In this document: positions 2,777 to 49,765 of the stretch, piece after piece | Position numbering within the stretch: position 1 is the first letter of the stretch | How the letters are laid out: each line of letters begins with the position of its first letter | Origin: Aquimarina longa SW024 | Lineage (GTDB): Bacteria > Bacteroidota > Bacteroidia > Flavobacteriales > Flavobacteriaceae | Assembly: GCF_001401755.1 (NCBI RefSeq) | Contig: NZ_AVQK01000010.1 | Location: 186,001 to 250,000, forward strand | Length of the DNA stretch: 64,000 nt | Direction of reading: 5' to 3' | Notes under the pieces: generated by a model | Seen by the model: the letters and a program-made list of their open reading frames with translations, nothing else | Told to the model about the DNA's origin: nothing | Database searches by the model: none | Made by a program: the position numbers and the translations under genes

Positions 2777-2876
2777 CAGAAACGTACTAATCTTAGGAAT
2801 AAAGCTTTTAAAAGTTTCATTTAAATAGAATTTTTGACACTATCCCGTTAAGTATGTAACTTAAAATATCAAAGGG

Positions 2877-3526
2877 TTAGCCTTTTTTTCTAAATACCAT
2901 TTTCAAATCAGTTACTAAATAAAACCCAACAAATCCAAAACTGCTTATAGCCATTATATATTACCCTTCTGGGATAAGTAAAAATATATTCACGCCTATT
3001 AAAAATAGACAAAATGGATAGGTAAATAATCTAATCAATATATTGTTAAATGACCATTCTTTTTCAGGTTGCTTTTCCCTAATTTCAATATCCAATATTT
3101 CATATATTTCTTCAAGCTGATTTTTTGTTTCGAATAGATAGAGTTTACGAAAAACTGTTATTAGAATCAGCAAGAAAACCAACCCAATTAGAATTAGGAA
3201 CCAATTTTCTAGAAAATCAAAATCAGTTGAGAAATTGATAAAAACAAAGTATAGAATTCCGATTAAAATAATCCAATGAACGTTTTTCCGATAGGATTCA
3301 ATTTACTCGTTATATTCGTCAGATGATTATTTGTATTAAGTTCAAATTTAAAAATCGGATAGAAAGCACTATTCCACAAATTCTGTTTCCAAACTTTTAT
3401 TTCGTTCCGATCAATTTCTCCTTTTGGTCTAAAATCACGAGAAAAAATATTCCATAAATGATTCAGAAAAGTGTCTTCTTTTCTCAATTTAATTAGTTTT
3501 TCTATGTCTTTTTTTGTGATTTCCAC
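2877..3526 (-). pseudogene. Decayed membrane-protein gene (frameshift plus internal stop)
   Basis: Two open segments on the minus strand belong to one broken gene. The first begins with GTG at 3526 (MEITKKDIEK) and ends prematurely at NPIGKTFIGLF. After a one-base loss near 3265-3300 the next frame continues into hydrophobic segments (ILIGILYFVFINF, then LILIGLVFLLILITVF), an acidic stretch and FCLFLIGVNIFLLIPEG. A TAA at about 2959 then interrupts a tail that stays open to 2877 (MAISSFGFVGFYL). Reassembled, it would be about 215 residues with three or four membrane spans. I do not recognise a named function. The two lesions suggest true decay rather than one sequencing error. Confidence 0.7.
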
Positions 3527-3678
3527 TTTACTTTACTTACTGACAACAATACAATAAATAACAATTGCTACTACATTTTATGTATTTTTTAATTTACCAA
3601 AAGCTTACCTCTAACTTACTTATACTTAATTTAATAATTGTGATGAATTACTCGATTATATAGGATTATGTTATATGT

Positions 3679-12583: not shown

Positions 12584-13465
12584 ATGACATCATTATTACA
12601 TTCTAAGCATAGATTAATTACAATTCTAAAAATTTCAGCTTTTGTTATATTCTTAGGAAGAGCCTATCAGCATATACTATGGGATCCCCCGTATAGAACA
12701 TTTTTATGGGATGAAAGTATTCTAAAGAATGTTGTTGAAAATATCTTTGGAGTAGCATGGCATGATTATGTAACCAACCTCTCTGTTGATAATACAATCT
12801 CTTTATCGATAAAAGTAATAGGAGTTTTTTATTTATTATGCGCCATTGTTACATTGCTGATGAAACCTAATATGAAGAAATTAGGCAAATTCTTTTTATT
12901 AGGAGGCAGTATCGGACTTCTTATTTTAGCACTACTATATTGTAAAGAAAAATTTTTTCATGTAGGACAGTTTTTTGAGTATACAATTCAATTTTTAAGT
13001 CCAGTGCTCCTATACATGATACTATTCACAACGATTGATTTTAAAAAGATACGTCTAATAGCCCTTATCGCTATTGCGCTTACATTTAGTTGTCACGGTC
13101 TCTATGCGATAGGATATTATCCTAGACCAGGTAATTTTATTGATATGACTTTAAACAGCATACCAATTAGTGAACCTAATGCGCATGTATTACTAAAAAT
13201 TGCAGGGATTCTTGATTTTGTTATTGCTGTTGCTATTTTTATTCCTAGGATTTCTTATGTAGCTTTAGTCTATGCATTTATATGGGGAGGATTGACAGCG
13301 ATTGCTCGTCTAACAGGACATTTTCATGTTGATTTTCTATGGAATACATTTAATCAATGGACATGGGAAGTTCTTATTAGATTACCTCATGCCTTTATTC
13401 CTTTGTTTGTAATGATTGCAGATCGTCCTAATTTATATTTCTGGAAGAGAACTCAAGCGATTTAA
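12584..13465 (+). CDS. Multi-pass membrane protein of unknown function
   Basis: 293 residues with about seven or eight hydrophobic helices and almost no soluble domain. It begins MTSLLHSKHRLITILKISAF. Conserved-looking polar points include HILWDPPYRTFLWDE near the first helix and a HFHVDFLWNTFNQWTWE stretch near the end. I do not recognise the family; it is vaguely DoxX-like. It lies 170 bases upstream of the DUF5690 gene in the same direction, but the two predicted operators fall between them, so it may be a separate transcript. A link to the phosphonate locus is inferred only from position. Confidence 0.65.
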   Translation: MTSLLHSKHRLITILKISAFVIFLGRAYQHILWDPPYRTFLWDESILKNVVENIFGVAWHDYVTNLSVDNTISLSIKVIGVFYLLCAIVTLLMKPNMKKLGKFFLLGGSIGLLILALLYCKEKFFHVGQFFEYTIQFLSPVLLYMILFTTIDFKKIRLIALIAIALTFSCHGLYAIGYYPRPGNFIDMTLNSIPISEPNAHVLLKIAGILDFVIAVAIFIPRISYVALVYAFIWGGLTAIARLTGHFHVDFLWNTFNQWTWEVLIRLPHAFIPLFVMIADRPNLYFWKRTQAI

Positions 13466-13550
13466 TATTAAATAACCTTTTTTGCTCTATATATCATAAA
13501 AGATTTTACAATTAATCAAAGCTATAATAAATATTTCTTAAACTCTATTT

Positions 13551-13567
13551 TTTTACTATTAGTAAAA
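13551..13567. promoter_or_regulatory. Predicted XRE operator, copy 1
   Basis: A perfect 17-bp palindrome with one central base, TTTTACTATTAGTAAAA (half-sites TTTAC and GTAAA, 5 apart). It lies 69 bases upstream of the DUF5690 start. Its centre is 41 bases from the centre of copy 2, about four helical turns. Binding by the regulator at 16816-17391 is inferred. Confidence 0.6.
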
Positions 13568-13592
13568 TAGTGTTCATTTTTGTGTCTTAAAA

Positions 13593-13607
13593 TTTACTAT
13601 TAGTAAA
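13593..13607. promoter_or_regulatory. Predicted XRE operator, copy 2
   Basis: The same 15-bp palindrome, TTTACTATTAGTAAA, 28 bases before the DUF5690 ATG, so it probably overlaps the transcription start or core promoter. Two identical palindromes on the same helix face suit cooperative binding by dimers. Confidence 0.6.
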
Positions 13608-13635
13608 AATATGTAATAAGAGTTCAAGACTGCAA

Positions 13636-14919
13636 ATGAAGACATCTTATCTAAAGTTCATCATACATGCATCAATAGCTTCTTTTGGAGCTTATTTCTG
13701 TATGTATGCATTTAGAAAACCTTTTAGTGTAGCTACTTTCGAAAACCTTTCTGTTTTTAATATAGATTATAAGATTGTATTAATTATAGCTCAGGTATTA
13801 GGGTATACATTCTCTAAGTTTCTAGGAATAAAAATAATATCAGAATTAAAAGCTGAGAATCGGGTAAAGTATTTAATAGGATTAATTCTTTTGGCAGAAT
13901 TAGCATTAGTATTTTTTGCAATTTTGCCACAACCGTATAATGTGATAGCCTTATTTTTTAATGGATTACCATTAGGAATGATTTGGGGTATTGTATTTTC
14001 TTACCTCGAAGGACGAAAGTTTACAGAGATACTAGGAGTAGCTTTATGTAGCAGTTTTATTGTATCCAGTGGAATTGTAAAATCTGTAGGTCTATCTCTT
14101 ATGAATATTTGGCATGTTTCTCAATTTTGGATGCCAGCCGCTACAGGAGCATTATTTATTGTACCATTATTATTTTTTGCGTGGTTGTTAGAAAAACTAC
14201 CTGTAACAACATTAGAAGATAAAGTAATGCGATCTGAACGTGTACCAATGTCTGCCAAAGATAGAAAGCATCTTTTGCTCTCATTTTTGATACCAATTAC
14301 AGGGATTGTACTATTCTATACATTACTAACAGCATTTAGAGATTTTAGAGATAATTTTGCACGAGAACTATGGGATAGTATAGGATATAAAGGGGATGTT
14401 TCGGTATATACAACTTCAGAAATTAGTATTGCAGTAGTAGTACTCCTAATTTTAGGAAGCACATTCTATATAAAAAATAATGCAAAAGCGGTATACATAT
14501 ACCATTTCTTAATCTTAATAGGAGTTTTGTGTATCGGAATTTCTACGGTTCTTTTTCAATTAGAAATACTAAACCCTTTTATTTGGATGGTTATATGTGG
14601 GTTTGGACTATACATTTGTTACGTTCCTTTTAATTGCTTGTTTTTTGACCGATTTATAGCAATGTTTAAGATCAAAGGAAATGCAGGTTTTTTGATCTAT
14701 ATCGCAGACTCTTTTGGGTACTTAGGTAGTATCACAGCACTATTATATAAAAATTTTGGACAAGCAAATTTAAGTTGGCTAGACTTTTTTATTTATGGAG
14801 CATATGGGATAACAATATTAGGAATAGTAATTATGCTAGGCTCTTTGTTGTATTTTAAAAAAGCATACCGTACTAGAATAACAACTATAGAAACAGAATT
14901 ACATTATGAAAAAATATGA
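13636..14919 (+). CDS. DUF5690 family MFS-like transporter
   Basis: 427 residues with about twelve hydrophobic helices. The opening (YLKFIIHASIASFGAYFCMYAFRKPFSVATF) matches the DUF5690 pattern, related to major facilitator phosphate-ester/organophosphate antiporters. The frame overlaps the next gene by 14 bases, so the two are translationally coupled. Given the downstream oxidoreductase and phosphonatase-like hydrolase, I infer that it imports an aminophosphonate or a related small anion. Two predicted operators precede it. Specificity is not testable from sequence alone. Confidence 0.75.
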   Translation: MKTSYLKFIIHASIASFGAYFCMYAFRKPFSVATFENLSVFNIDYKIVLIIAQVLGYTFSKFLGIKIISELKAENRVKYLIGLILLAELALVFFAILPQPYNVIALFFNGLPLGMIWGIVFSYLEGRKFTEILGVALCSSFIVSSGIVKSVGLSLMNIWHVSQFWMPAATGALFIVPLLFFAWLLEKLPVTTLEDKVMRSERVPMSAKDRKHLLLSFLIPITGIVLFYTLLTAFRDFRDNFARELWDSIGYKGDVSVYTTSEISIAVVVLLILGSTFYIKNNAKAVYIYHFLILIGVLCIGISTVLFQLEILNPFIWMVICGFGLYICYVPFNCLFFDRFIAMFKIKGNAGFLIYIADSFGYLGSITALLYKNFGQANLSWLDFFIYGAYGITILGIVIMLGSLLYFKKAYRTRITTIETELHYEKI

Positions 14920-16060
14920 CCTCGTTGTTGTAGGAGGTGGAGTACTAGGCACTTTTCATGCATATCATGCATTGCAAAATGGATTACAAGTAGCTTTACT
15001 CGAAAAAAATAAAATGCCACAAGGAGCAACTACTCAAAATTTTGGACAAGTAGTTCCTTCTGGAATGAATACCAAATGGCAGACTTATGGTAGAGAAAGT
15101 TTAAAAATATACAAAGAAATCCAACAGCAATACGATATAACACTTCGTGAGAATGGATCTGTATATCTGGCATCTAATAAAGAAGAAGTACAACTCATAG
15201 AAGAGCTACATCAGATCAATCAAAACAATCAATATACCTCGGAATTATTAACCAAAGAAGAGTGTATTACAAAATATCCTGGATTACGACCCGATTATAT
15301 ACAAGCAGGATTATTTTTTCCAGAAGAAGTTACCGTAGAAGCTCGTGAGATGATACATCGTTTACAAGATTTTATGGTAAAGCATATGAGTTTAGACTAT
15401 TTTACAAATAGAAACGTAATCGCTTGTGAACAAGTAAATAACTCTGTTAAAATAACCTCTTCTTCAGGAGAAATTTTTGAAGCAGAAAAAGTAATTATTT
15501 GTAATGGTAATGAGTTTAAAAACTTATATCCAGAACTTTTTAATAGTAGTGACTTAGAAGTTACAAAACTACAAATGTTGCAAACTAAATCTCAATCTAA
15601 CTATAAACTATCTGGTAATATTCTAACTGGATGGTCCATCAGGCGATATGAAGCATTTGCAGAATGCCCTTCCTTTTTTAAAATAAAATCTAAAGAAGAC
15701 CTTGATTCTCTACAGAAAAAATGGGGTGTACACATTTTGTTTAAACAAGCACCAGATGGATCGATAATTATAGGAGACTCTCATGAGTATGCAGATGCTA
15801 AAGATATGGAAAATCTGGGATGCACTCTTAATATGGATATAGATCATTTTATGATAGAAGAAGCACAGAAAATTATGGAGTTACCTACTTACACGATCCA
15901 AAATAGGTGGTTTGGAATGTATTCGCAATGTAAAACTAGTGATGTATTTCAGCAAACTATAGATGATACTATTCATATCATTACAGGAATTGGAGGTAAA
16001 GGAATGACAGGAAGTGCAGGATTTGCAAAAGAAAATATTACACAATTATTTAATATATAA
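14906..16060 (+). CDS. TIGR03364-type FAD-dependent oxidoreductase of a phosphonate locus
   Basis: 384 residues of the DAO/glycine-oxidase fold. The N-terminal Rossmann motif is VVVGGGVLGTFHA (residues 7-19), followed by LLEKN, where an acidic residue would hold the FAD ribose. The C-terminus has the second FAD motif IHIITGIGGKGMTGSAGFA. This subfamily is known to sit beside phosphonatase-like HAD enzymes. I recall members reported to oxidise aminoethylphosphonate or its N-methyl form to phosphonoacetaldehyde, but the substrate here is inferred. It overlaps the transporter gene by 14 bases and is followed 7 bases later by the HAD gene, so this is one operon. Confidence 0.8.
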   Translation: MKKYDLVVVGGGVLGTFHAYHALQNGLQVALLEKNKMPQGATTQNFGQVVPSGMNTKWQTYGRESLKIYKEIQQQYDITLRENGSVYLASNKEEVQLIEELHQINQNNQYTSELLTKEECITKYPGLRPDYIQAGLFFPEEVTVEAREMIHRLQDFMVKHMSLDYFTNRNVIACEQVNNSVKITSSSGEIFEAEKVIICNGNEFKNLYPELFNSSDLEVTKLQMLQTKSQSNYKLSGNILTGWSIRRYEAFAECPSFFKIKSKEDLDSLQKKWGVHILFKQAPDGSIIIGDSHEYADAKDMENLGCTLNMDIDHFMIEEAQKIMELPTYTIQNRWFGMYSQCKTSDVFQQTIDDTIHIITGIGGKGMTGSAGFAKENITQLFNI

Positions 16061-28363: not shown

Positions 28364-28915
28364 TTATAGGGCTAGCCAATCACCTAATTCTATTATATCC
28401 CCATTAGGGAACTTTACTTCATATACAATTGGATTCATTTCATTCTTTTGAATATAGGGGTATTTTTGTAAATATTCTTTTCCACTATAATCAGCGTAAT
28501 CTTCTCGTATAGGTAAAATTGCAATATGATCTATCGATTTTTGAGTATTAGCATATCTGATTTGCCATTTACAGTGTTTAGAACTAATGGCGTTTTCTGT
28601 AGCAATAAAAATAAACTTACGACTCTTTTTTATTTTATCCTCTATCTGCTCTTGTATACGTTTAGTAACCATTTTATCTTCTGATGTTATTTCTTCTAAT
28701 ATATAATCTACGTGAATAAGTATTCTAAATCCTTTTAGGAAATTAATGGCGCTATCAAGTTCTTCTAATTCATCATATTTGTAAGAAAGAAATAGTAAGG
28801 TTTTAAGGAGCTTTGTTTCTTCTTTAAAGAGTTGCAAGCTTTTGATGACAGACTTATTGTATATCCTAGCATTGTTTCTAAACTGTAGTAATCCATATTT
28901 TGACAATATATTCAT
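28364..28915 (-). CDS. Lone TIR-domain protein
   Basis: 183 residues. After about 38 residues the TIR core begins with LLFLSYKYDELEELDSAINFL, continues with a KIKKSRKFIFIATENAISSKHCKWQI strand-helix, and ends with HIAILPIREDY. It is about the length of a single TIR domain with a short N-terminus and no fused sensor. In catalytic bacterial TIRs the S-x-W-C-x-x-E box carries the NAD-cleaving Glu. Here the aligned stretch reads KHCKWQIRYA with Gln at that place, so enzymatic activity is doubtful. It lies next to the recombinase relic, as defence-like genes often do, but has no obvious partner. Confidence 0.72.
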   Translation of the reverse strand: MNILSKYGLLQFRNNARIYNKSVIKSLQLFKEETKLLKTLLFLSYKYDELEELDSAINFLKGFRILIHVDYILEEITSEDKMVTKRIQEQIEDKIKKSRKFIFIATENAISSKHCKWQIRYANTQKSIDHIAILPIREDYADYSGKEYLQKYPYIQKNEMNPIVYEVKFPNGDIIELGDWLAL

Positions 28916-29000: not shown

Positions 29001-29439
29001 AATGGATTAAGAAGAAATGAAATATTAAATTTAGAGTTAACTGATATTGATAGTAAACGAATGACGGTTTATGTAAGGAATGCTAAGAATAATAAAGACC
29101 GATATTCATTACTATCTGAAAAAACATTAAAAGACTTAAGAGCGTATTATAAGCAATGGAAACCTAAAAAATATCTTTTTGAACCCCCAAATGGGATGAA
29201 ATATTCTGGAAAAAGTGTAGGAGTAATTGTTGCTAGAGCTGCTTTAAAAGCAAATATCAAAAGAAGGGTTACACCACATATACTTAGGCATTCGTTTTGC
29301 AACTCACCTATTAGAGAGTGGAACAGATTTAAGATATATACAAACTCTTTTGGGGTATAGTAGTACAAAAACAACAGAAATTTATACTCAGGTAGCTATA
29401 AATAATTTTAAGTTAATCAGAAATCCACTAGATTTATAA
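29001..29439 (+). pseudogene. Tyrosine recombinase relic, C-terminal part with frameshift
   Basis: The frame opens at 29001, just after a stop, with NGLRRNEILNLELTDIDSKRM, the start of a tyrosine-recombinase catalytic domain. It reads on through GNKDR-like NNKDRYSLLSE to the box [11 protein letters not shown]. One extra T at about 29295 then shifts the frame. In the other frame the sequence continues as [32 protein letters not shown] (nucleophile Tyr in EIYTQV) and NPLDL, ending at 29439. The whole N-terminal DNA-binding domain is missing. The tail resembles integron-type and XerC-like Bacteroidota recombinases. It lies just upstream of attC-like cassette boundaries and could be their lost integrase. 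Confidence 0.78.
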
Positions 29440-29449
29440 ATAAATGGAA

Positions 29450-29473
29450 TATATAGGACATATATCCTATATA
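29450..29473. other. 24-bp near-palindrome before the first cassette
   Basis: Arms TATATAGGA and TCCTATATA separated by six bases (CATATA), followed six bases later by GTTACA, the presumed left boundary of the first cassette. It may be an operator, promoter element or attI-like remnant. Confidence 0.4.
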
Positions 29474-29502
29474 TCATTGTTACAGTCAAGCAAAACAAAA
29501 TT

Positions 29503-30604
29503 ATGAGAGAAATTGGACTTTTTATTTTTACAATATTAATTTTAGCATCTTGTCAAAAAGAAGCAAAGATTGATGGATATGAAATCAGTGGAATTATTAA
29601 AAACGTTCCTGATAGTACAATGGTTACATTTGGTGATTTTTTTAAGCCCACTGATTCTACTTTTGTTATTGGAGAAAAATTTCAATTTATAGGAAAAACA
29701 GAAAAACCTGAAAATGTTATCCTAAGAATAAAAGGTACTAGAGATTATTCAGAATTATGGATTGAAAATAGTAAAATAAATTTTATCGCTGAAAAAGGCA
29801 AATTTATTGATAGGGTGATTACTGGTTCTGAATCTCAGAGGCAAGCGGACATACATTATGCGAGAATAAAACCACTAAAAAAAGCTTTTTGATAGTCTTT
29901 ATAACTTATCGATTGATCAAAGTCTGACTCAGTCTTATAGAGACTCTATGGTTATGAAATACAGTCGCTTAATTCCAAAAGAGGCAGAAATAAGTAAAAA
30001 ATTCATAGAAGAGTATCCTAACTGTTTAGAAAGTACTAAAGTATTAAATAGGTATATGCGAGATTGGGGTAAAGAGATTAGTAATGAATTATTCTCGAAG
30101 ATGAATATCGATATAAAAGAGTCAGATTATGGAAAAGAAATTTCTCATTACCTAAGTTTACCCAAAAAACCAGAAATTGGAGAAAAGTTTGTAGACTTTT
30201 CACTTAAAAATATTGAAGGAAAAGAAATTAAACTTTCGGATATAAATGCAAAATATACTTTAATAGAATTTTGGTCTTCTTGGTGTGGGCCTTGTCGAAA
30301 ATCTAATCCTGAGCTAGTTAAGGAGTATAAAAAATATAAAGCTCAGGGTTTTGAAATAATCGGAGTTTCATTAGACAAGAATAAAGAAAGTTGGATCGAA
30401 GCTATTAAAAAAGATAGTCTTACTTGGCCAAATATAATTGACCTAAAGGGGTTTGAAGGTGATATAAGTTTAATTTATGAAGTAAATGGAATACCGGATA
30501 ATTTCTTAATGGATCAAAATGGAATTATTATAGAAAGAAGATTAAGAGGAGATAAATTAAAAAATAAGTTAAAAGAAATATTTGAAAAAAAAGCCAGCCT
30601 TTAA
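29503..30604 (+). pseudogene. DUF4369/TlpA-like thioredoxin gene with a single frameshift
   Basis: Two open segments form one gene. The first (from ATG 29503) has a lipoprotein start (MREIGLFIFTILILASC) and a DUF4369-type beta domain (YEISGIIKNVPDSTMV). It ends at a stop about 29890, inside a run of A and T. One base less in CTTTTTGATAG would give AFDSLYNLS and join the second segment. That segment carries a thioredoxin fold with the active site WCGPC (in FWSSWCGPCRKSN) and ends at 30604. The intact protein would be a periplasmic disulfide reductase of the TlpA/ResA kind. Attenuation by a homopolymer slip is possible, but decay or a base-call error is simpler. Confidence 0.78.
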
Positions 30605-30608
30605 CATT

Positions 30609-30667
30609 ATATAACAAAACATAATTGCCCTTCGGGATAACAACGTTTGTTATATTTAACGTTGTGC
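30609..30667 (+). other. attC-like recombination site A
   Basis: Begins 5 bases after the TlpA-like stop. Left core TATAAC and right core GTTGTG can pair with two wobble pairs. Inner arms (ATAACAAA and TTTGTTAT) surround a small CCCTTCGGG hairpin. Together these give the two nested inverted repeats typical of integron attC sites, with the AAC...GTT core. Confidence 0.5.
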
Positions 30668-30679
30668 GCAATCCCTCAT

Positions 30680-30913
30680 AGCTCCGAAAACCCTTTAGTA
30701 CTATGCTAACGAAGTCTTATTTTTACACTCTAAATAATTTAAGCTCTTTGTAAGGCCGTTTTTTAAAGTGTTGCTACTTTGTGTAAGCACGTGCGCAATC
30801 CTGGTTGAAATGTTTGCCATTTAGTACATTGGCGGCCTAAATCTTAGGACCCCGTTCAGAATATTTCTTTTTGCCTAAAGCACATTTCCTTAGAGCTTTT
30901 AAAATCGTAAGTT
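30680..30913 (+). ncRNA. Candidate bridge RNA of the IS110 element
   Basis: The 234-base leader before the transposase has no open frame. In IS110-group elements such a leader encodes the bridge RNA that pairs with target and donor DNA. It contains GTGCGCAATCC at 30791-30801, an exact copy of the 11 bases directly left of the element (30664-30674), as expected if this is the left target guide. The exact RNA ends and its fold are not determined. Confidence 0.4.
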
Positions 30914-32269
30914 ATGGAACAACAAATGACATTAGAAATCGTAAACAAAAATGCTGCTGGTATTGATATTGGTAGTCGTAGTCATTGGGTAGCCGTCGGT
31001 CAAAAAAAGTCTGATATTAAAGAATTTGGAGTATATAATGAAGATTTATACGCTCTAGCAGATTGGCTTAGAGAACATAAGATTACCTCAGTAGCTATGG
31101 AAAGTACAGGTAATTATTGGCAAAACTTACACGCTGTTTTAATTGCCAATGGATTTGAAGTTACTCTTTGTAATGGAAAGTTTACCAAAAATATAAAAGG
31201 AAAAAAGACAGATGTAATTGATTGCCAATGGATACAAAAATTGCATGCTTTGGGATTACTTTCTTCAAGCTTCTTACCCGATGAAGACACAGAAATATTA
31301 AGAACTTTTACCAGACATCGTTTAAACCTAATCCAGCAAGCTGCTGCTTCATCAAAAAAAATGCAAAAATATCTAAGGCTTATGAATATAAGATTAGATG
31401 TTGTAGTGAAAGATATTGTAGGACTTACAGGATTGAAAATTATTACAGCTATTTGTTTGGGAGAAACAGATCCTAAAAAACTAGCTAGTTTAAGACATTA
31501 TAACTGTAGAAAAAGTGAAGAAGAAATAGCTAAAGCTTTACACACAAACCGAAGAAATGATTATTTGTACGCATTAAATGATGAATTGGATACATATAAC
31601 TATTTACAAGAAAAAATTAGAAAATGTGATGATCAAATAGCTTTGAAAATTGATGACATCATTGGTAAAGATCCTGAAAAAAAAGAGCATCATATAGATA
31701 AGAAAAAGCATAAAAGAATCAATAAAAACACTCCAAAAAATATTGATATCAATCTTAAATCTTATCAAATCTTCAAAGGAATAGATTTATTAGCAATAGA
31801 AGGAACGAGTTACAATACAGCACTCACCATAATGAGTGAAATTGGATATGAAGGTATTCATAAGTTTAAAACAGCTAAACATTTTACATCTTGGCTCAGA
31901 TTAGCCCCTAATAACAAAGTAAGTGGAGGAAAAGTATTATCCAGTAAAATAGGTAAAGGAAGTAGTAGACTCAAAATAGCTCTAAGAAATGCTGCAAATG
32001 CGATTGGAAATTTAAAAGATAGTACTCCGCTTAGAGATTTTTTCCACAGAATAAATTTTAGAAAAGGAAGAGTCTCAGCTATTACAGTAACTGCTAGAAA
32101 ACTTGCTATAATTATCTGGAATATGATTGTCAAGGCTAAACCATATCAAAATCCAGAAGGATACTTATACCTTGACCAAAAAAGAAAACTTGGACTCGTC
32201 AAAAGAATTAAAAAACAAATTGATAAATTTGACATCAAACCAGAAGATCTTGAATTTAAAACTCCCTGA
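30914..32269 (+). CDS. IS110-family transposase (DEDD plus serine)
   Basis: 451 residues. The N-terminal RuvC-like domain has D18 (GIDIGS), E63 (MESTGNYW), D100 and D103 (KTDVIDCQW). The C-terminal Tnp_IS110 (transposase_20) domain has the catalytic Ser region VSGGKVLSSKIGKG (S337). Both halves are intact and normal in length, so the enzyme may be active. A charged Lys-rich insert sits near residues 255-275. It recombines DNA guided by a bridge RNA made from its own leader. Confidence 0.92.
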   Translation: MEQQMTLEIVNKNAAGIDIGSRSHWVAVGQKKSDIKEFGVYNEDLYALADWLREHKITSVAMESTGNYWQNLHAVLIANGFEVTLCNGKFTKNIKGKKTDVIDCQWIQKLHALGLLSSSFLPDEDTEILRTFTRHRLNLIQQAAASSKKMQKYLRLMNIRLDVVVKDIVGLTGLKIITAICLGETDPKKLASLRHYNCRKSEEEIAKALHTNRRNDYLYALNDELDTYNYLQEKIRKCDDQIALKIDDIIGKDPEKKEHHIDKKKHKRINKNTPKNIDINLKSYQIFKGIDLLAIEGTSYNTALTIMSEIGYEGIHKFKTAKHFTSWLRLAPNNKVSGGKVLSSKIGKGSSRLKIALRNAANAIGNLKDSTPLRDFFHRINFRKGRVSAITVTARKLAIIIWNMIVKAKPYQNPEGYLYLDQKRKLGLVKRIKKQIDKFDIKPEDLEFKTP

Positions 32270-32358
32270 TTTTGAATAAATAAAATTGACGTTAGTCAGA
32301 ATCTGTAAACTTGTATTTTTTACCAATTTTCGGTATTTTTGAACTAAATAATGTTAAA

Positions 32359-32610
32359 ATGAGTAAAAATACATCAATATCACTCGGAAATTATTTTGAC
32401 CAATTCATTCAGAGTCGAATACGTGAGGGACGATTTAAAAATGTAAGTGAAGTAATCCGTGCTGGATTAAGACTTTTAGAAGAAGAGGAAAGTAAAGCTG
32501 TAGCTCTAAAAAATGCTATTCAAGAAGGAATTGACAGCGGAATTGCTCACGATTTTAACCCAGAAAAACATCTTAAATCTCTAAAAGCAAAAAAACACTC
32601 GAATGGCTAA
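32359..32610 (+). CDS. parD: ParD-like ribbon-helix-helix antitoxin
   Basis: 83 residues from the ATG at 32359 (MSKNTSISLGNYFDQFIQSRIREGRFKNVSEVIRAGLRLLEEEE), a clear ribbon-helix-helix operator-binding domain followed by a C-terminal toxin-neutralising tail. A TTG 48 bases upstream adds no family sequence. It overlaps the toxin gene by 8 bases. The pair probably represses its own promoter. It lies inside the cassette interrupted by the IS110 element. Confidence 0.88.
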   Translation: MSKNTSISLGNYFDQFIQSRIREGRFKNVSEVIRAGLRLLEEEESKAVALKNAIQEGIDSGIAHDFNPEKHLKSLKAKKHSNG

Positions 32611-32902
32611 ATTCAAACTGACCAATAAAGCAGTTGAGGATTTATCAAAGATTTGGGATTATACTTTTGAGGTTTGGTCAGAAAAACAAGCTGACAAATA
32701 TTATGAAATGTTGATTTCTAATTGCCAAGAAATAGCTGATAATCCAGATTTAGGAAAAAACTACAATGGAATTACTAAAAATCTATTCGGAGTAAAATCG
32801 AATCGACACATTATTTTCTATCGAAATGTTGATGATAATTATGTGGAAATTACAAGGATTTTGCACGAAAGAATGGATTTAAAGAAACGAATACTGGAAT
32901 AA
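32603..32902 (+). CDS. parE: ParE/RelE-superfamily toxin
   Basis: 99 residues of the ParE/RelE fold (FKLTNKAVEDLSKIWDYTFEVWSEKQADKYYEMLI, then SNRHIIFYRNVDDNYVEITRILHERMDLKKRI). The C-terminal R-I-L-H-x-R-M-D motif is typical of ParE, whose known action is poisoning DNA gyrase. Its translation is coupled to the antitoxin gene. Toxin-antitoxin pairs are common passengers of integron cassette arrays, which fits the attC-like site 7 bases downstream. Confidence 0.88.
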   Translation: MAKFKLTNKAVEDLSKIWDYTFEVWSEKQADKYYEMLISNCQEIADNPDLGKNYNGITKNLFGVKSNRHIIFYRNVDDNYVEITRILHERMDLKKRILE

Positions 32903-32908
32903 AAACTA

Positions 32909-32977
32909 CCCACAACAATTTGTATAGTTCATTTGCTCCCTTCGGGAAGCAAACGCACCATACAAGAAACGTTATGG
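32909..32977 (+). other. attC-like recombination site B
   Basis: CCCACAAC at 32909-32916 can pair with GTTATGG at 32971-32977. Inside are ATTTGTAT and ATACAAG arms and a strong TTTGCT..AGCAAA hairpin with CCCTTCGGG at its tip. It lies 7 bases after the toxin stop. The left core complements GTTGTG at 30661-30666, the presumed start of the same cassette, before the IS110 insertion. Confidence 0.55.
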
Positions 32978-33005
32978 GCAAGTTGAACACAACACAATTA
33001 GCAGA

Positions 33006-33605
33006 ATGAATTACAACGAAATTGCAGAAAAAATAATCGAACTGAAAAATACTGATTTGGAATTTCGTGAAAAGCTAATTGAAAGTGGAAAACTTAGTGA
33101 AGGCTACAATAAAGAAATGGCTGAAATTCACAACAAAAATGCCAAAACTCTAAATGAAATAATAAATAAAATAGGTTATCCAACGCTTGACAAAGTTGGC
33201 AAAGAAGCAAATGAAGCAACTTGGTTAATAATACAACATTCTATCGGACAACCTAACTTTATGAAAAAATGTGTGAAATTATTAGAAATTGCTGTTCATC
33301 AAAATAAAGCCAATTCAAAAAATTTAGCGTACTTGACTGACCGAATAGCAGTTTTTGAGAATAAACCACAACTTTATGGAACTCAATTTGATTGGGATGA
33401 AAGCGGAGAATTGAGCCCTAATATTTTTGATGACTTGAAAAAAGTGAATCAAAGGCGAAAATCTATTGGGTTTAATTCAATTGAAGAACAAACTAAAATT
33501 ATAAGAAAACAAGCTAAAAATAATAAACAATCGCCACCGACAGACTTTGAAAAAAGAAAACAGGAAATTGAGGAATGGAAAAAAACTGTTGGTTGGACAA
33601 AATAA
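33006..33605 (+). CDS. DUF6624-domain protein
   Basis: 199 residues, mostly helical and charged. Residues about 60-150 match DUF6624 (GYPTLDKVGKEANEATWLIIQHSIGQPNF, then YLTDRIAVFENKPQLYGTQFDWD), a domain of unknown function. No signal peptide. The gene lies between GTTATGG (32971) and CCATAAC (33613), exact complements of each other, as expected for one gene cassette carrying its own recombination site. Confidence 0.75.
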   Translation: MNYNEIAEKIIELKNTDLEFREKLIESGKLSEGYNKEMAEIHNKNAKTLNEIINKIGYPTLDKVGKEANEATWLIIQHSIGQPNFMKKCVKLLEIAVHQNKANSKNLAYLTDRIAVFENKPQLYGTQFDWDESGELSPNIFDDLKKVNQRRKSIGFNSIEEQTKIIRKQAKNNKQSPPTDFEKRKQEIEEWKKTVGWTK

Positions 33606-33612
33606 AACCAGT

Positions 33613-33660
33613 CCATAACAATGGTTATAAGTAATTGCTTGTTCTCGGCTACTTCTGAAA
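33613..33660 (+). other. attC-like recombination site C, apparently truncated
   Basis: CCATAAC 8 bases after the DUF6624 stop is the perfect complement of that cassette's start. It runs into AATGGTTATAAG and a CTCGGC segment, but I find no right-hand core afterwards, so the array is probably cut off here. Confidence 0.45.
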
Positions 33661-34012
33661 ATCCGCAGGAATTTCCAAAGTAAATAAAAAAGCCTTTATT
33701 TATAGGAGATATATAAGATTTCAAAAAAACAAGTAATGATTTAGTAACGAAACTAACTTCTTCTTTCGTTTAATTTCAAATAACTTCCACAAAGTTAGGT
33801 ATCTTAAATGATAGTTTTCTAAACTTTAACAAAAAAATCTACTCACATTCAATAAAAAAGGAAATTAATCGTTTTAAGTGTACGACATTTTTAAAATAGA
33901 GCCTTGATGTAAATTCAAAATCATCACTTTTTTATGAGGAATAAATACTAAAAATCATCAACGACCATTCCGATTTTTAATCAAATATTTCTAACCCTTT
34001 AAAACAAAAGTT
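33661..34012. other. Junction region before the ICE-like module
   Basis: About 350 bases without a gene: the truncated attC tail, AT-rich sequence and then the promoter region of rteC. The left border of the conjugative-element fragment should lie here, but I see no att repeat. Confidence 0.4.
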
Positions 34013-34843
34013 ATGAACCCATTATTTGCAACAACGCTAAATGAAATCTGGAAAAAAGAAGAGCAGATACAAGAAGTTTTGAATATATCTCCTATTAAAA
34101 CTGCCAAAGAAATGGCATTGTTTACTCAAAGTCAATTAGAAAAAGTTAAGGAATATGTTTTATCATATGGTTTTGAAACGGTTGATGATGAAATTACTTT
34201 TTTTAAAGAGGTAAAACCACAAATTCAAGGAATGCTACTGTACTACAAGTACATCTATCACATAGAAACTTCCTGTCCTATAGGTTGTAGAGATAATATA
34301 ATTATTCATTATCGAAAATTTTATAAAGAACTATCAGAAAGAAACCAACAAAAATATTGTAAAAATTCATTTTATCAATATTTTAAATCTGGGAGAACTG
34401 ACAAAGATGAAGTCTTTTTTACACAACAAAAAAATAAAGACATTGTTTTCAAAAATTACGATTCGTTTAATTTTATTGATACGAAATTTACCACATTTTA
34501 TGATTGTTTATTATCGTTAATTTATTCGGAAGAAAAACTTCTTCACTTTATTGAAAGAAAAGAAGGTAAGGTGTATAGCGTTGAGGCACAATCAGAAAAT
34601 TTGCAATGGTTAGCTTCAAAAAGCTCTTTGGTTGAATTAATTTACGCATTATATTCTTCACAATCTGTAAAAGGAGTAAGTATTCGTAGTATAGCCAGTT
34701 CATTTGAAGAATTATTCAGAATAAAATTAGGCGACATACATCATACGTATCACCGAATGAAATCCAGAAGTAACAGTAGAACCCTCTTTTTAGACAGACT
34801 AAAAATTTCTTTAGAACATCAACTTCAAGTAAGCGATGCTTGA
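34013..34843 (+). CDS. rteC: RteC-family regulator
   Basis: 276 residues matching the RteC protein: an N-terminal helical part (FKEVKPQIQGMLLYYKYIYHIETSCPIG), a central dense YKELSERNQQKYC region, and a C-terminal winged-helix-like end (SIRSIASSFEELFRIKLGDIHHTYHRMKSRSNSRTLFLDRL). In CTnDOT, RteC activates the excision-gene promoter, and here the xis-like genes lie 138 bases downstream behind a terminator, matching that arrangement. Upstream rteA/rteB are absent. Confidence 0.85.
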   Translation: MNPLFATTLNEIWKKEEQIQEVLNISPIKTAKEMALFTQSQLEKVKEYVLSYGFETVDDEITFFKEVKPQIQGMLLYYKYIYHIETSCPIGCRDNIIIHYRKFYKELSERNQQKYCKNSFYQYFKSGRTDKDEVFFTQQKNKDIVFKNYDSFNFIDTKFTTFYDCLLSLIYSEEKLLHFIERKEGKVYSVEAQSENLQWLASKSSLVELIYALYSSQSVKGVSIRSIASSFEELFRIKLGDIHHTYHRMKSRSNSRTLFLDRLKISLEHQLQVSDA

Positions 34844-34853
34844 AGAGCAATTG

Positions 34854-34880
34854 TCAGTCTTGTTGAGACTGATTTTTTTT
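34854..34880 (+). terminator. Terminator after rteC
   Basis: Perfect 7-bp stem TCAGTCT with AGACTGA, loop TGTTG, and eight T. It isolates rteC from the excision genes, so the latter need their own RteC-dependent promoter in the following 100 bases. Confidence 0.85.
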
Positions 34881-34981
34881 GCACTAAAAACTGTTAAATT
34901 TCATACCCATTGGCAAGAACTTGGCAATAAAACATATCCAACCTTTTCAATTTTGCTCCATCATTTTAAATCTTTTTAACG

Positions 34982-35311
34982 ATGGAACTTATCACACTAC
35001 AATCCGAAGTATGGACGCAACTACAAGCTCAAATTAACACTATACACGAACATCTTCAACCACCTAAAGACAGCGAGTTATATAAAAACGTATGGCTCAA
35101 CCATCGTGAAGTCTGTGAGTATTTACACATCAGTTCTCGAACGCTTACTCGAATGCGAAAAGCAGGAGAAATTACCTACTCTGAAAACCGACGACAATAC
35201 TTTTATACCATTGGAGCTATTGAAGAATTGCTAAACAAACATGCAGTACCTTCCAAAGAAGAATATCTCAAAAATCTTACAGACCAAGCCAAAAAATACC
35301 TAAAACAATAA
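34982..35311 (+). CDS. Xis2c-like helix-turn-helix protein
   Basis: 109 residues. A winged MerR/excisionase-type helix-turn-helix lies at about 35-85 (VWLNHREVCEYLHISSRTLTRMRKAGEITYSENRRQYFYTIGAI). By order and size it corresponds to the first excision gene of CTnDOT-type elements, a DNA-bending excision factor and activator. It is 3 bases ahead of the second HTH gene, so both are co-transcribed. Confidence 0.8.
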   Translation: MELITLQSEVWTQLQAQINTIHEHLQPPKDSELYKNVWLNHREVCEYLHISSRTLTRMRKAGEITYSENRRQYFYTIGAIEELLNKHAVPSKEEYLKNLTDQAKKYLKQ

Positions 35312-35314
35312 GCT

Positions 35315-35611
35315 ATGAATTTGGATAGACGAGAATTTTTTGCGTGGATGGACAGAATCCAGGATCGTTTCGATTTGCTAGACGAAAAACTAAACCGATT
35401 ACAACGGCAGAAAAACGTAGTTGAGGGCGAACAATTGTTAGACAATCAAGATGTGCTAACGATTTTAAAAGTAAGCCAACGCACCTTACAACGTTATCGT
35501 TCATCAGGAAAGCTACCGTATTATTCTATCAGCGGAAAAACCTACTACCGTTTATCGGATGTAAACCACTTTATCAAGTCGCTATTCAAACATCCTGTAA
35601 CGCCAAAATAG
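35315..35611 (+). CDS. Xis2d-like helix-turn-helix protein
   Basis: 98 residues: a short coiled-coil-like start (FAWMDRIQDRFDLLDEKLNRLQRQ) and a helix-turn-helix (LLDNQDVLTILKVSQRTLQRYRSSGKLPYYSISGKTYYRLSDVNHFI). It corresponds to the second small HTH gene of the CTnDOT excision operon and likely binds DNA together with the preceding protein. Confidence 0.8.
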   Translation: MNLDRREFFAWMDRIQDRFDLLDEKLNRLQRQKNVVEGEQLLDNQDVLTILKVSQRTLQRYRSSGKLPYYSISGKTYYRLSDVNHFIKSLFKHPVTPK

Positions 35612-35687
35612 GTTTTTGTAGGTCAAACAAGGTCAAAATCAATAGAATTATTTTTTCAGAAATCACACATTGTACTTTCGATTTTAA

Positions 35688-35749
35688 ATGAACCATCTCA
35701 GAAAAGCCTCGGATAATTAAACACTTGGCTATCCCTCTGCGATTAAAAT
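35688..35749 (+). repeat. Dispersed ~62-bp sequence, copy 1
   Basis: Shares about 40 of 46 core bases (35704-35749) and further weaker similarity upstream with 60241-60303, 25 kb away. It lies directly before the DUF3945 start, so it may be a regulatory or RNA element. See the findings. Confidence 0.7.
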
Positions 35750-35758
35750 CAGAAAAAC

Positions 35759-37144
35759 ATGAGTGAAACACATCAAGAATTACCCGAACAGTTTTCGGAT
35801 ATTCTATTGGTATTAGACCAAGAAAAAAAGGAAATCAGAGCCGTAAAAGGCATTGATAAAAACGGGAATTTAGAAACCACCGACCCTAAAAAAGCAAATG
35901 AAAATGAGTTTTTAAAGGTGGATAAACACGGCGATATGCTGTCTAATTTTTTTCTGAATTACTTCCGTCAAGCAAAAGACCCAACCCGCTTTAAATTTTT
36001 TAAAGTTCCTAAAAAGCAAGTAGAAAAAATAGTAAAAATTTTTAAAGAACAATTAAAGAACCCTACAAAAGCGATGAGTGAGATGATGAAACATCACGAA
36101 GTAGATACATCAAAATTTAACACAAAAAAAGAAACAACAATGGCAACACAAGCAAAACCACAAGACACAAACACTCAAGAGGAAACACCAAAACAAGAAC
36201 CTCAAAAGAAAGGAACAAAAACCCATACCAGCGATTACAAATATCAAGAAAAAGATATCGATTGGGCAACCTTATCCAATTTTGGTATTACCAAAGAAAA
36301 ATTAGAAAAGCGAAACTTATTAGAACCACTTTTAAAAGGCTATAAAACGAATGAATTAGTAAATATAAGTCTCAATGTAGATACGGTAATTAGCCGATTA
36401 GATGCCCGTTTATCACTTCAAAAAAATGCCGAAGGAAAAATAACAATGGCGATTCACGGTATCCGTAGAGAACCAATGCTCAACTATCCATTTTTCGGAC
36501 ATCAATTTAGTGATGAAGACAAACAAAACCTCAAAAACACAGGTAATATGGGACGCGTTGTCGATTTACAAAACCTAAAAACAGGAGAAATGATCCCCTC
36601 AATAATAAGTGTAGATAGACTAACCAATGAATTAGTTGCTTTAAAGTCAGAATACATCAAAATTCCTAATGAGATTAAAGGAATTACACTAAACGAAGAC
36701 CAAAAACAAACGCTTCAAGAAGGAAAATCGTTGTATTTAGAAGGCATGACTTCAAGCAAAGGTAAAGCCTTTAGTGCCAATGTTCAGTTCAATGCAGATA
36801 AGCGATATGTAGAATTTCTGTTTGACAAACCAACGCAAAACAAACAGCAAAAACAAGAGCAAATGCCATCAGAAGAAATTCCAAAAATGATACGAGGTAA
36901 AGAACTTACCGAAGAACAACGTCAGCTTTTAAAAGACGGAAAAACCATTTACATCAGTGGATTTTTAAGTAAAAGCGGTAGTGCCTATAACGGCTATTTA
37001 AAGTTGGATGGCAAAAACGGAAAAGTAGATTTTTCATTTAAAAATCCGAATAAAAAAGAGGACAAAGTCGGACAAGAAACAAGCAAAGGTAAAGCAGAAA
37101 AAACCGACGATAAACCAACCAAAACAAAGGGTAAAAAACTATAA
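35759..37144 (+). CDS. DUF3945 domain protein (CTnDOT orf3-like)
   Basis: 461 residues. Two DUF3945 copies can be seen (about 310-365 and 375-430, each with a KGI/RGKELT...QKQTLQEGKS or EEQRQLLKDGKTIYI pattern). Charged, low-complexity stretches lie before (about 120-160, AKPQDTNTQEETPKQE) and after (KAEKTDDKPTKTKGKKL) them. In CTnDOT-type elements this gene sits between xis2d and the topoisomerase, as here. Its biochemical role is unknown. It is separated from topB by 2 bases. Confidence 0.8.
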   Translation: MSETHQELPEQFSDILLVLDQEKKEIRAVKGIDKNGNLETTDPKKANENEFLKVDKHGDMLSNFFLNYFRQAKDPTRFKFFKVPKKQVEKIVKIFKEQLKNPTKAMSEMMKHHEVDTSKFNTKKETTMATQAKPQDTNTQEETPKQEPQKKGTKTHTSDYKYQEKDIDWATLSNFGITKEKLEKRNLLEPLLKGYKTNELVNISLNVDTVISRLDARLSLQKNAEGKITMAIHGIRREPMLNYPFFGHQFSDEDKQNLKNTGNMGRVVDLQNLKTGEMIPSIISVDRLTNELVALKSEYIKIPNEIKGITLNEDQKQTLQEGKSLYLEGMTSSKGKAFSANVQFNADKRYVEFLFDKPTQNKQQKQEQMPSEEIPKMIRGKELTEEQRQLLKDGKTIYISGFLSKSGSAYNGYLKLDGKNGKVDFSFKNPNKKEDKVGQETSKGKAEKTDDKPTKTKGKKL

Positions 37145-37146
37145 AG

Positions 37147-39219
37147 ATGAAAGTAATACTTACAGAAAAGCCCAGTGTAGCGAAAGATTTAGCGCTACAT
37201 CTAGGGCTTACCCAACGCAAAAATGGCTATTGGTTGGGTAAGGGGTATGCGATAACGTGGGCTTACGGACATTTAGTAACATTAGCACTACCAGAAAGCT
37301 ACGGTATTAACGGATTTCAACGAGACAATTTACCGATTATTCCCAAAGATTTTTTGTTAATGCCTCGTCAACTGAAAGTACGAGGTGGTTACAAAATCGA
37401 TGCACGTGCTTTTGAGCAATTACAAATCATCAAAGAATTATTTGAGCGATGCGAAAGTATCATTGTAGCAACCGATGCGGGTCGTGAGGGCGAACTCATT
37501 TTCAGATACATTTATCAGTATTTACAGTGTCAAAAACCGTTTCAACGCTTATGGATAAGCTCGTTAACTTACGAAGCGATTACTAAAGGTTTTAAAAATC
37601 TGCAAAACGGAACTAATTTCGATACCTTGTATCAATCAGCTAAAGCACGCAGTCAAGCCGATTGGCTTATTGGTATCAACGCTACACAAGCGTTGAGTGT
37701 TCAAGCAAATAACGGAATTTATTCATTAGGAAGAGTACAAACACCAACGCTAGCAATGGTTTGTAAACGCTATTTGGAAAACAAAAACTTTGCGTCTGAA
37801 ACATATTGGAACATTCAACTTCAACATTCGGTATTAGGCACTACTTTTTATACGCAATCTGAAACCTCTTTTTTTAATAAAGAAACTGCCGAAAAGCTGA
37901 TTGAAAGCATCGCATTTGTAAAAACGGTAACAGTACTTGAAGTTGTTGAAAAAGAGAAAAAGGAACAACCGCCTTTGCTGTATGATTTAACCGCTTTACA
38001 AAAAGAAGCACACGTTCAATATAACTTTTCGGCATCCAAAACCTTGGAAATTGCACAGTCGTTGTACGAGAAAAAACTCATTAGTTATCCACGCACAGGA
38101 AGTCGTTATATTTCTGAAGATATGTGGCAGAAAATACCTGAATTAATTCAATTTTTAGAAAGAAATGAAACCTTAAAAGAACACGCTAAATTTTTGCGAT
38201 TACAAAAATTACAAAAACGCATTGTAAACGATGAAAAAGTAACCGATCACCACGCTTTGTTGATTACTGATTATATGCCAGCATCCATTTCAAATGAAGA
38301 AAAAACGCTTTATCAACTAATCGCTTCTCGATTGTTAGAGTCGGTGTCAGCGCCTTGTGTTAAAGAGCTTACGCAGATACGTTGCATAGCAAAAGACGAA
38401 CGCTTTACAACAAATGGAACTGTTATTGTATCCGAAGGTTGGAGAGCGATACGAGGATATTTTGAGCAAACCACAACTCAACAATTACCTGATGTGTCTG
38501 ATAAAAAAGAGCTAACGATAAAAGCAATTAAATTAGTTGAAAAACAAACACAACCGAAGCCATTACTTACCGAGGCGACCTTACTTTTTGCAATGGAAAA
38601 CGCTGGAAAAACTATTGAAAATAAAGAAGAGCGATTAGTCATAAAAGAAGTAGGTTTAGGAACGCCAGCTACGCGTGCGAATAGTATCGAAACCTTATTT
38701 AAACGTGATTATATTAAACGCCAAAAAAAGGCATTACTTCCTACCGAAAAAGGCTTACAAGTGTATCAAATTGTAAAAGACAAACGTATTGCCGATGTAG
38801 CAATGACAGGAATGTGGGAAAGGTCATTAGCAGGTATAGAAAAAGGTGAAATAAGTGAGGCAAGTTTTCAAAAAGCTATTGAAATTCACACACAACAAAT
38901 TACCAGAGAGCTGTTGCAAAGTGAGGTGAAATCACTTCCAAAAAAGCAACAATTATGTTGTCCAAAATGCAAGAAGTCTTCTGTAAAAATATATCCAAAA
39001 GTAGCAAAATGTACAGCGGAAGATTGCGATTGGCTTGTTTTTAGAACTATTTGTGGCAAAACAATGACTGAAAAAGCTATTTCAACGTTATTGGAGAAAG
39101 GGAAAAGTCCGTTATTAAAAGGCTTACAAAGTAAAGGGAATAAAATTTTTGATGCGTATTTGGTATTACATAAAGACGGAACTACTTGTTTTAAATTTCC
39201 TGTAAAAAGAAAGAAATAA
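37147..39219 (+). CDS. topB: DNA topoisomerase III, type IA (CTnDOT exc-like)
   Basis: 690 residues. TOPRIM start MKVILTEKPSVAKDLALHLG, with the acidic DAGREGELIF motif. The catalytic tyrosine is Y314 in LISYPRTGSRYIS. The C-terminus has a four-Cys zinc-like finger (CCPKCKKSS, then CTAEDCDW). In conjugative transposons this enzyme is called Exc and is needed for efficient excision in vivo. Its active residues look intact, so it can probably relax or decatenate DNA in this cell. Confidence 0.92.
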   Translation: MKVILTEKPSVAKDLALHLGLTQRKNGYWLGKGYAITWAYGHLVTLALPESYGINGFQRDNLPIIPKDFLLMPRQLKVRGGYKIDARAFEQLQIIKELFERCESIIVATDAGREGELIFRYIYQYLQCQKPFQRLWISSLTYEAITKGFKNLQNGTNFDTLYQSAKARSQADWLIGINATQALSVQANNGIYSLGRVQTPTLAMVCKRYLENKNFASETYWNIQLQHSVLGTTFYTQSETSFFNKETAEKLIESIAFVKTVTVLEVVEKEKKEQPPLLYDLTALQKEAHVQYNFSASKTLEIAQSLYEKKLISYPRTGSRYISEDMWQKIPELIQFLERNETLKEHAKFLRLQKLQKRIVNDEKVTDHHALLITDYMPASISNEEKTLYQLIASRLLESVSAPCVKELTQIRCIAKDERFTTNGTVIVSEGWRAIRGYFEQTTTQQLPDVSDKKELTIKAIKLVEKQTQPKPLLTEATLLFAMENAGKTIENKEERLVIKEVGLGTPATRANSIETLFKRDYIKRQKKALLPTEKGLQVYQIVKDKRIADVAMTGMWERSLAGIEKGEISEASFQKAIEIHTQQITRELLQSEVKSLPKKQQLCCPKCKKSSVKIYPKVAKCTAEDCDWLVFRTICGKTMTEKAISTLLEKGKSPLLKGLQSKGNKIFDAYLVLHKDGTTCFKFPVKRKK

Positions 39220-49545: not shown

Positions 49546-49589
49546 CTGTAAGACCAAAAGCTTCAAACCGCGAAAGCATTGTCCATTCA

Positions 49590-49765
49590 GAATAGGCAGG
49601 TCTCCTGACTTATAACAGTTTTATCGTCCTTCCCATTAAAAACAGTGGACATAAATTTGATAAAACCTTTGGGGTGTTACTTACAGTTGCGCGACAGCTC
49701 TGGATTTGCACCAGATTCCCTATTAATCTACCTTAAGTAAAACCTAATCCGTTTGATGAAGTATG
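49590..49765 (-). promoter_or_regulatory. Cobalamin (B12) riboswitch upstream of metE
   Basis: The minus strand carries the class hallmarks in order: GGTGCAAATCC with its GGGAA lead, then GCTGTCGCGCAACTGTAAG (the B12 box region), the middle stems with CCACTG, and AAGTCAGGAGACCTGCCT at the 3' side. These are the conserved core and kissing-loop parts of adenosylcobalamin riboswitches. It controls metE, the enzyme that is dispensable when B12 is present. Confidence 0.93.

Follow-up and report, generated by a model that had tools for sequence, protein, structure and literature searches.

The 64,000-nucleotide window analyzed here, which comes from Aquimarina longa SW024 (contig C5, positions 186001-250000, of a 5.5 Mb genome in 67 contigs), very probably contains one end, now decayed, of an integron-like cassette platform of the Bacteroidota that would use a folded bottom-strand substrate and a tyrosine recombinase other than the integron integrase, IntI. 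The arrays, cassette ends at GTT, end complementarity, covariation, strand asymmetry, and attI position were read from the sequences themselves, as were the lack of an IntI above cut-off and of the IntI insertion in the recombinase. The window by itself is only suggestive of cassettes; this reading of it is established because arrays exist in the same genome and in relatives. A sequence-only reading of the window had proposed that its units are integron-like cassettes, perhaps from a less known system of the Bacteroidota, and the arrays, recombinase, and sites reported below support it; to this we add the recognition of an attI-like site and of a recombinase that is not IntI.

Sites of this system had the architecture R''(NNNNNNAAC)-3-L''(8)-...-L'(8)-5/6-R'(GTTNNNNNN). 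On contigs C25, C26, and C27 they were chained, such that the nine bases GTTNNNNNN after one site were the exact reverse complement of the NNNNNNAAC of the next. A scanner for AAC...GTT plus fold-back was dropped as too noisy in this AT-rich genome, and a complementarity-chain test was used instead. Under a strict rule (nine exact bases, both ends structured, spacers of 3 and 5/6), 18 loci of the A. longa genome contained 49 cassette units, compared with 1 in a control in which the six free bases were reversed. In a strict cassette, the first nine bases and the R'' box are exact reverse complements of each other, which is what recombination of a circular cassette at GTT should produce, and cassettes would circulate as circles. 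There were 47 distinct cassettes with a median length of 870 bases, and the longest open reading frame (ORF) ran in the array direction in 40 of these, and in 106 of 116 in other loci. Many had a start codon 12-45 bases past the GTT and a stop 2-16 bases ahead of R''. The core differed from GTTRRRY, as the sequence-only reading had noted: the cassette-start logo, GTTRKVNNN (n=47), agreed with it at GTT and at the purine in position 4, with position 5 being mostly T.

Two cassettes were each present in both the C25 and C26 arrays. For one (1338 identical bases), identity started exactly at the GTT, which a C precedes, while the other end reached N in C25. For the second (97.5% over 1618 bases), similarity stopped at the GTT of its own site; at its left end the bases immediately ahead of the GTT differed, and this edge was not sharply judged because the preceding sites resemble each other. 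Among 20 cassette proteins (from 49) searched against Pfam, five matched anti-phage or restriction families (PvuRts1I-like, GmrSD, Shedu, Mrr/nSTAND3, and a Schlafen-type helicase with GIY-YIG), another five matched transglutaminase, rRNA-methylase, decarboxylase, DUF695, and TonB_C (just below cut-off), and ten matched no Pfam family. It is highly improbable that the repeats are scattered intergenic IS110/REP-like or terminator elements with a coincidental cassette look. Although IS110 copies lie at some sites, and the sites come after stop codons, where they could end transcription, such elements are contradicted by the chained, exact nine-base complementarity of the 49 units against the single control unit, by the units common to two arrays, and by the finding of only five IS110 copies against 47 distinct cassettes.

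The attC-like architecture R''-L''-(stem)-L'-R' with AAC...GTT was present in the sites examined, and the 140 distinct confirmed sites fell into length classes of ~70, 130, 170, and 190-200 bases. Within their L boxes, which had been preselected for at least 7/8 pairs, 84 of the 140 had A.C at position 7 of the top strand, corresponding to a T.G wobble on the bottom strand, and there were 13 other mismatches. Of 117 sites folded with DNA parameters (120 drawn from the 140, less three containing N), 99 had the lower energy on the bottom strand. Additionally, a second helix that had played no part in site selection was analyzed in 39 of the 53 ~130-base sites, after exclusion of 13 near-duplicates and one off-locus site. 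In it, 96.5% of cells were paired, compared with 70.2% when shuffled and 30-58% when slid, and its covariation score was 0.577 versus 0.128 in shuffles. This helix had a bottom-strand G.U, at columns 28/121, in 39 of 39 sites (A.C on top), and a bottom-strand G.U was present at 22/127 in 34 of 39. The two wobbles are confined to one strand, and no other observation points as strongly to a folded bottom-strand substrate; together with the folding bias, they suggest that it is this strand that recombines, as for attC. The GTT is too short to locate the cut inside it.

We also weighed a double-strand, Xer-like system, in which the core sites (GTT plus palindromic boxes) would be recognized as duplexes and the foldable center would be incidental or regulatory. 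The enzyme is nearest to the XerA/Xer and IntI folds and lacks the IntI insertion, and the attI is a compact palindrome, all of which would suit such a system. However, two helices covary, the unselected one far over its controls, and bottom-strand wobble pairs are unneeded for duplex recognition, and we consider this alternative unlikely. It differs from the explanation we prefer only in the folded-strand step, and the confidences placed in the two overlap. In the preferred explanation, we infer that the DNA recombines as a folded single strand.

An intact recombinase of 375 residues, related to the relic in the window, was found on contig C10. A palindrome ending in CATTGTT lay 3' of its stop codon, the first cassette began GTTGTAAGT at the GTT of the palindrome, and its R'' (ACTTACAAC) was the exact complement; the second cassette had a start, GTTGTCATT, and an R'', AATGACAAC, that were likewise exact complements (both partly compared by eye). 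The family comprised at least 571 confirmed relatives, from which 80 named loci were kept, including those of Aquimarina, Tenacibaculum, Maribacter, Arenibacter, Winogradskyella, and Flavivirga. In 45 of the 54 core loci counted (of the 80, three had no recognized ORF and 23 had less than 1.5 kb downstream), an attI-like GTT started a unit that had an exact, nine-base complementary, structured R''. This GTT fell within 185 bases of the recombinase stop, mostly at 35-50 and up to 174. Controls gave 2/54 and 3/54 with altered keys and 4/52 in upstream windows. In a further set of 23 loci, the same signature, here with the GTT up to 260 bases from the stop, was present in 16, and in 0/23 with the reversed key; this set came from 33 loci selected among the top matches across the phylum, relatives, and contigs of A. 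longa itself, which had 25 ORFs, two too near a contig end. Five of the 16 (L284, L288, L291, L297, and L299) were from phylum genomes outside the class of A. longa. Resident Xer genes showed the signature in 0/19 loci (L317, one of 20, had no recognized ORF). As a positive control, the same detector was given a 7-base key and recovered arrays next to genuine intI genes at 6 of the 12 loci listed (14 less two without a recognized ORF), on the strand opposite to intI; of the others, one was ambiguous (a single unit on each strand, one in the control) and five had none. In the Bacteroidota system, array and recombinase are on the same strand. We infer that the neighboring recombinase is the enzyme of the system. 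Moreover, the units recurred in chains of varying content in the A. longa genome and in other Flavobacteriaceae, and the full gene of the relic's family adjoined such sites, both of which the sequence-only reading had put forward as checks.

Two relatives of this recombinase stood apart. The 34% identical, wider-family recombinase of genome G033 (L267; G033:C1:2599637-2600752) was without the attI/cassette signature, and a recombinase relative on a Parabacteroides plasmid (L335 8368-12859) was followed by immunity-type genes (Tdi1, SMI1/KNR4), with a search there for the attI/first-cassette signature finding none. At E 1e-40, a search of phage records found no relatives of this recombinase.

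The window itself contained the following features, in order:

29001-29439, + strand: tyrosine recombinase relic of the cassette system, C-terminal catalytic part in two frames (Pfam PF00589, Phage_integrase, E 1e-15)
~29447-29481, + strand: attI-like site identified from sequence, the palindrome ATATAGGACATATATCCTATAT and then CATT and GTT (GTT at 29479-29481)
29479-30660, + strand: unit 1, a DUF4369 / TlpA-like (AhpC/TSA) gene, interrupted, in two ORFs (from ORFs and Pfam; start against own R'' 7/9, GTT 29479 versus R'' 30597-30605)
30597-30669, + strand: attC-like site 1 (R'' 30597-30605, L'' 30609-30616, L' 30648-30655, R' GTT 30661)
30661-32970, + strand: unit 2, the parD-parE toxin-antitoxin genes, interrupted by IS110 12 bases past the unit start (start against own R'' 7/9, GTTGTGCGC versus GTTGTGGGT, by eye)
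30673-32302, + strand: IS110-family element (transposase 30914-32269), between the parDE unit start and parD
32908-32979, + strand: attC-like site 2 (R'' 32908-32916, L'' 32920-32927, L' 32958-32965, R' GTT 32971)
32971-33680, + strand: unit 3, a DUF6624 gene (33006-33605; start against own R'' 8/9)
33611-33680, + strand: attC-like site 3, left half only (R'' 33611-33619, L'' 33623-33630)

The two pieces of the relic were 63% and 75% identical to the C10 recombinase, and the degenerate tyrosine recombinase that had been placed here from the sequence alone is real, being a Phage_integrase match with intact kin. The attI-like site was near-identical to that of locus L129, with a layout common to other loci, and unit 1 followed it, its stop codon overlapping R''. 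Site 1 had an 84% identical counterpart at the end of contig C10. Site 2 carried the A.C mismatch in its L boxes that is common in the site family, and its DNA had 10 matches in the genome, itself counted. Site 3 is the left half of a ~130-nt site, cut at ~33680, for which full homologs exist on C26 and C19, and the longer sites of L029 and L032 matched it at 80-88% identity. In the start/R'' comparisons over nine bases GTT is fixed, and the chance of at least 4/6 free bases matching is 0.038, and of at least 5/6, 0.005. Compared with shuffles under DNA parameters, the fold of site 2 was clear (z -3.1 for the top and -4.5 for the bottom strand) and that of site 1 weak (z -1.1 and -1.75), while that of site 3 was no better than shuffles (z -0.75 and -0.56) because the site is cut off.

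Several details of the sequence-only reading were refined by this layout. The complementary pairs it had reported, GTTGTG at 30661 with CACAAC at 32911 and GTTATGG at 32971 with CCATAAC at 33613, are where it had placed them. Its three units with attC-like ends also stand, except that site 3 is cut and the TlpA unit comprises two ORFs, DUF4369 and AhpC/TSA. The parD-parE pair is in unit 2 as described, alongside an IS110 element that had been overlooked, and a fold more stable than shuffles, which that reading had set as a test, was seen for site 2, weakly for site 1, and not for site 3. At Rfam gathering scores there was no match at the sites in the window, and the sole match was a cobalamin riboswitch (RF00174, 100 bits; window 49578-49762, - strand).

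Turning to the identity of the recombinase, its score against TIGR02249 (IntI) was 188 bits, below the cut-off of 265. The arginine box was separated from HxLRH by 91-92 residues (96 in one row) in 38 family members, compared with 133 in 24 IntI (distinct sequences from 30 loci), and the KYP motif was in 0/38 family members versus 22/24 IntI. In alignment to the integron integrase 2A3V, the family skipped IntI residues 180-238. The ~42-residue IntI insertion was absent. A tree of 75 rows, which was midpoint rooted with few outgroups and carries a long-branch warning, placed IntI in one clade (100/99) with the family outside it; the family and the 34% identical G033 recombinase were joined at a fork with 85/95, and 11 of 13 Xer-labeled rows formed their own separate clade. 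By these comparisons, the neighboring recombinase is not IntI. Against NF040815 (recomb_XerA_Arch), scores of 224.4 and 220.2 bits were just above the cut-off of 220, and a fold search with the predicted recombinase structure (pLDDT 85, pTM 0.59) gave 2A3V and XerA 5HXY as best matches. Other Xer-like genes were present in the A. longa genome on C7 and C20. Many family members had an extra ~100-residue N-terminal domain; the candidate role of this domain as a substitute for the IntI insertion, I2, was weakened by members that have the signature although their open frames span 290-319 residues (L284, L296, L297, and L299).

These results bear on another explanation, that of an ordinary integron array (a cluster of attC sites lacking an integron integrase, CALIN) in which classical IntI moves the cassettes in trans and the adjacent recombinase is a bystander. 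The anatomy equals that of attC arrays, and true IntI do exist in the wider phylum, being above cut-off in 105 of 395 sampled genomes. Yet IntI was above cut-off in 0/36 relatives, the A. longa genome included, and among the 108 matching phylum genomes the class of A. longa was represented once and its family not at all (the size of the same-class sample is not shown). Moreover, the attI-like site is 3' of the other recombinase across many genera, and cassettes start with GTTRKVNNN, not GTTRRRY. We therefore regard IntI acting in trans as quite improbable.

Several observations weigh against the integron-like platform that we favor. Its recombinase is without the I2 insertion, which PMC7790495 links to single-strand recombination in IntI, and recombination has been deduced from sequence. 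The units in the window match R'' at 7-8/9 bases only. Exact first-cassette matches were missing in 9/54 core and 7/23 further loci, the latter seven including L267, the relative at 34% identity, and L285 (+ strand), where the recombinase is a different one, and a few of the matches made may be chance, given the altered-key background. Each shared cassette could be judged at one end only, due to similar sites and N. A looser unit rule, applied to 93 loci, gave 324 units against a sizeable background of 68 in the control, and single loose matches are therefore untrustworthy. Finally, R1, a covariance model built from 10 long-class sites of the A. longa genome that under-detects the 68-, 174-, and 180-200-nt classes, found sites in 19 of 21 same-genus genomes, while a near full-length recombinase (at least 64% identity) was present in 12 of 21. 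Specifically, G002 and G011 have R1 sites but recombinase fragments only, and G004, G005, and G012 have R1 sites and no recombinase member among the matches listed. Arrays therefore outlast the recombinase in some genomes, or another enzyme serves them; genome fragments also frequently break at arrays.

The tetracycline-resistance gene tet(X) was found in the same setting on three plasmids, at an attI-like site or between cassette ends:

L334, 5043-7064: tet(X)
L337, 157-1483: tet(X)
L338, 4008-5334: tet(X)

The tet(X) unit of an Empedobacter falsenii plasmid begins, after a C, with GTTATGTGCC, to which its R'' (GGCACATAAC) is exactly complementary at 10/10 bases. This R'' opens a 137-base site with L boxes AAATTGGC/GCCAATTT (8/8) and spacers of 3 and 6. 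A Bacteroides fragilis plasmid carries the same unit and site with the start one base off (start/R'' 9/10). Sequences past the closing GTT differ between these two plasmids, as do the last bases ahead of the opening GTT, where the edge is less sharp because similarity extends ~24 bases further left. On an Acinetobacter indicus plasmid, tet(X3) is preceded by an attI-like palindrome and GTTATGTGCC and lies 3' of a short family recombinase, with no complete site found at the 3' end of tet(X3). This short 'XerD' (221 residues) has 51.5% identity to the family recombinase over the residues 146-375 of the latter.

Five IS110 copies were found in the fetched A. longa loci:

Window, 30673-32302: IS110 copy
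L030, ~2312-3942: IS110 copy
L032, ~4153-5783: IS110 copy
L032, ~13303-14932: IS110 copy
L027, ~833-2445: IS110 copy

Because all five follow CGTTNNNNNYAAT, the first 12 cassette bases, the element appears to target cassette starts.

Elsewhere in the window, a TIR-domain protein (Pfam TIR_2, ThsB_TIR; 28364-28915, - strand) lies just upstream of the recombinase relic and is a possible defense gene. On the 3' side of site 3, 34013-39219 contains an RteC-like gene, more ORFs, and a topoisomerase-like ORF (of these only RteC was searched), and may mark where a CTnDOT-type conjugative element begins, one that truncated the array.

The definition of integrons rests on IntI, and IntI systems also supplied the training sets of attC models; with a different recombinase, a platform would not be classed as a complete integron. 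In the explanation we propose, a XerA/IntI-like tyrosine recombinase without the IntI insertion would act with a same-strand, attI-like palindrome that ends in GTT 3' of its gene. Circular cassettes, mostly of one gene or operon, would insert at the attI GTT, each inserted cassette carrying a foldable site at its end. Crossover within the GTT would bring the first bases of a cassette beside its own R'', and R' and R'' would therefore be perfect complements in the circle, with the folded bottom strand serving as substrate, as for attC. We lean, with modest confidence and for the four points jointly, toward a second, IntI-independent, phylum-wide integron lineage of the Bacteroidota. This lineage would recombine its cassette sites as folded single strands with an enzyme devoid of the I2 insertion, which has been credited with enabling such recombination; it would encode its strand choice in paired G.T wobbles and, besides ISCR2, would have put tet(X) into circulation as a gene cassette.

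This kind of gene-capture platform occurs in many Bacteroidota, with swappable cassettes as in integrons and a different recombinase. It makes testable the need of the I2 insertion for folded single-strand recombination, which PMC7790495 links to I2, and the mobilization of tet(X) by the adjoining 'XerD', which PMC7473080 leaves to future work. Bacteroidota are among the phyla with integrons according to two reviews (PMC8618304, PMC9668308). In the parts of the open-access PMC literature covered, preprints and subscription journals being outside this scope, we found no description of a non-IntI integron of Flavobacteria or of tet(X) as an attC-type cassette; the system may have been described elsewhere.

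Compared with known systems, the platform is closest in anatomy to integrons (intI, attI, and attC, including superintegrons and CALINs), with which it shares an attI, short cassettes in one orientation, foldable R''-L''-L'-R' sites, ends at GTT, a start complementary to R'', a bottom-strand-biased fold, and toxin-antitoxin and defense cargo. It differs in that its recombinase is without the IntI insertion, falls outside the IntI clade, and reads toward the array, in its core (GTTRKVNNN rather than GTTRRRY), and in an asymmetry that comes via G.T wobbles. As integrons are defined through IntI, we do not file the system as an integron, although it would be integron-like in its working. With Xer systems (XerA 5hxy, XerH, NF040815) it shares the catalytic core and a palindromic attI, whereas its recombinase is outside the resident Xer clade and linked to cassette arrays. 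With IS110/IS1111-attC elements, the element here shares the IS110 family and a location at cassette recombination sites, but it is 12 bases inside the cassette start, after GTTNNNNNYAAT. Finally, the xerD/tnpF-tet(X) units of Acinetobacter and Bacteroidota plasmids likewise have a 'XerD' relative followed by an attI-like palindrome and GTT, but the recombinase there is the C-terminal part only, and PMC8635130 ascribes their spread to ISCR2. This published route is compatible with a cassette origin of tet(X), to which ISCR2 would be a later step.

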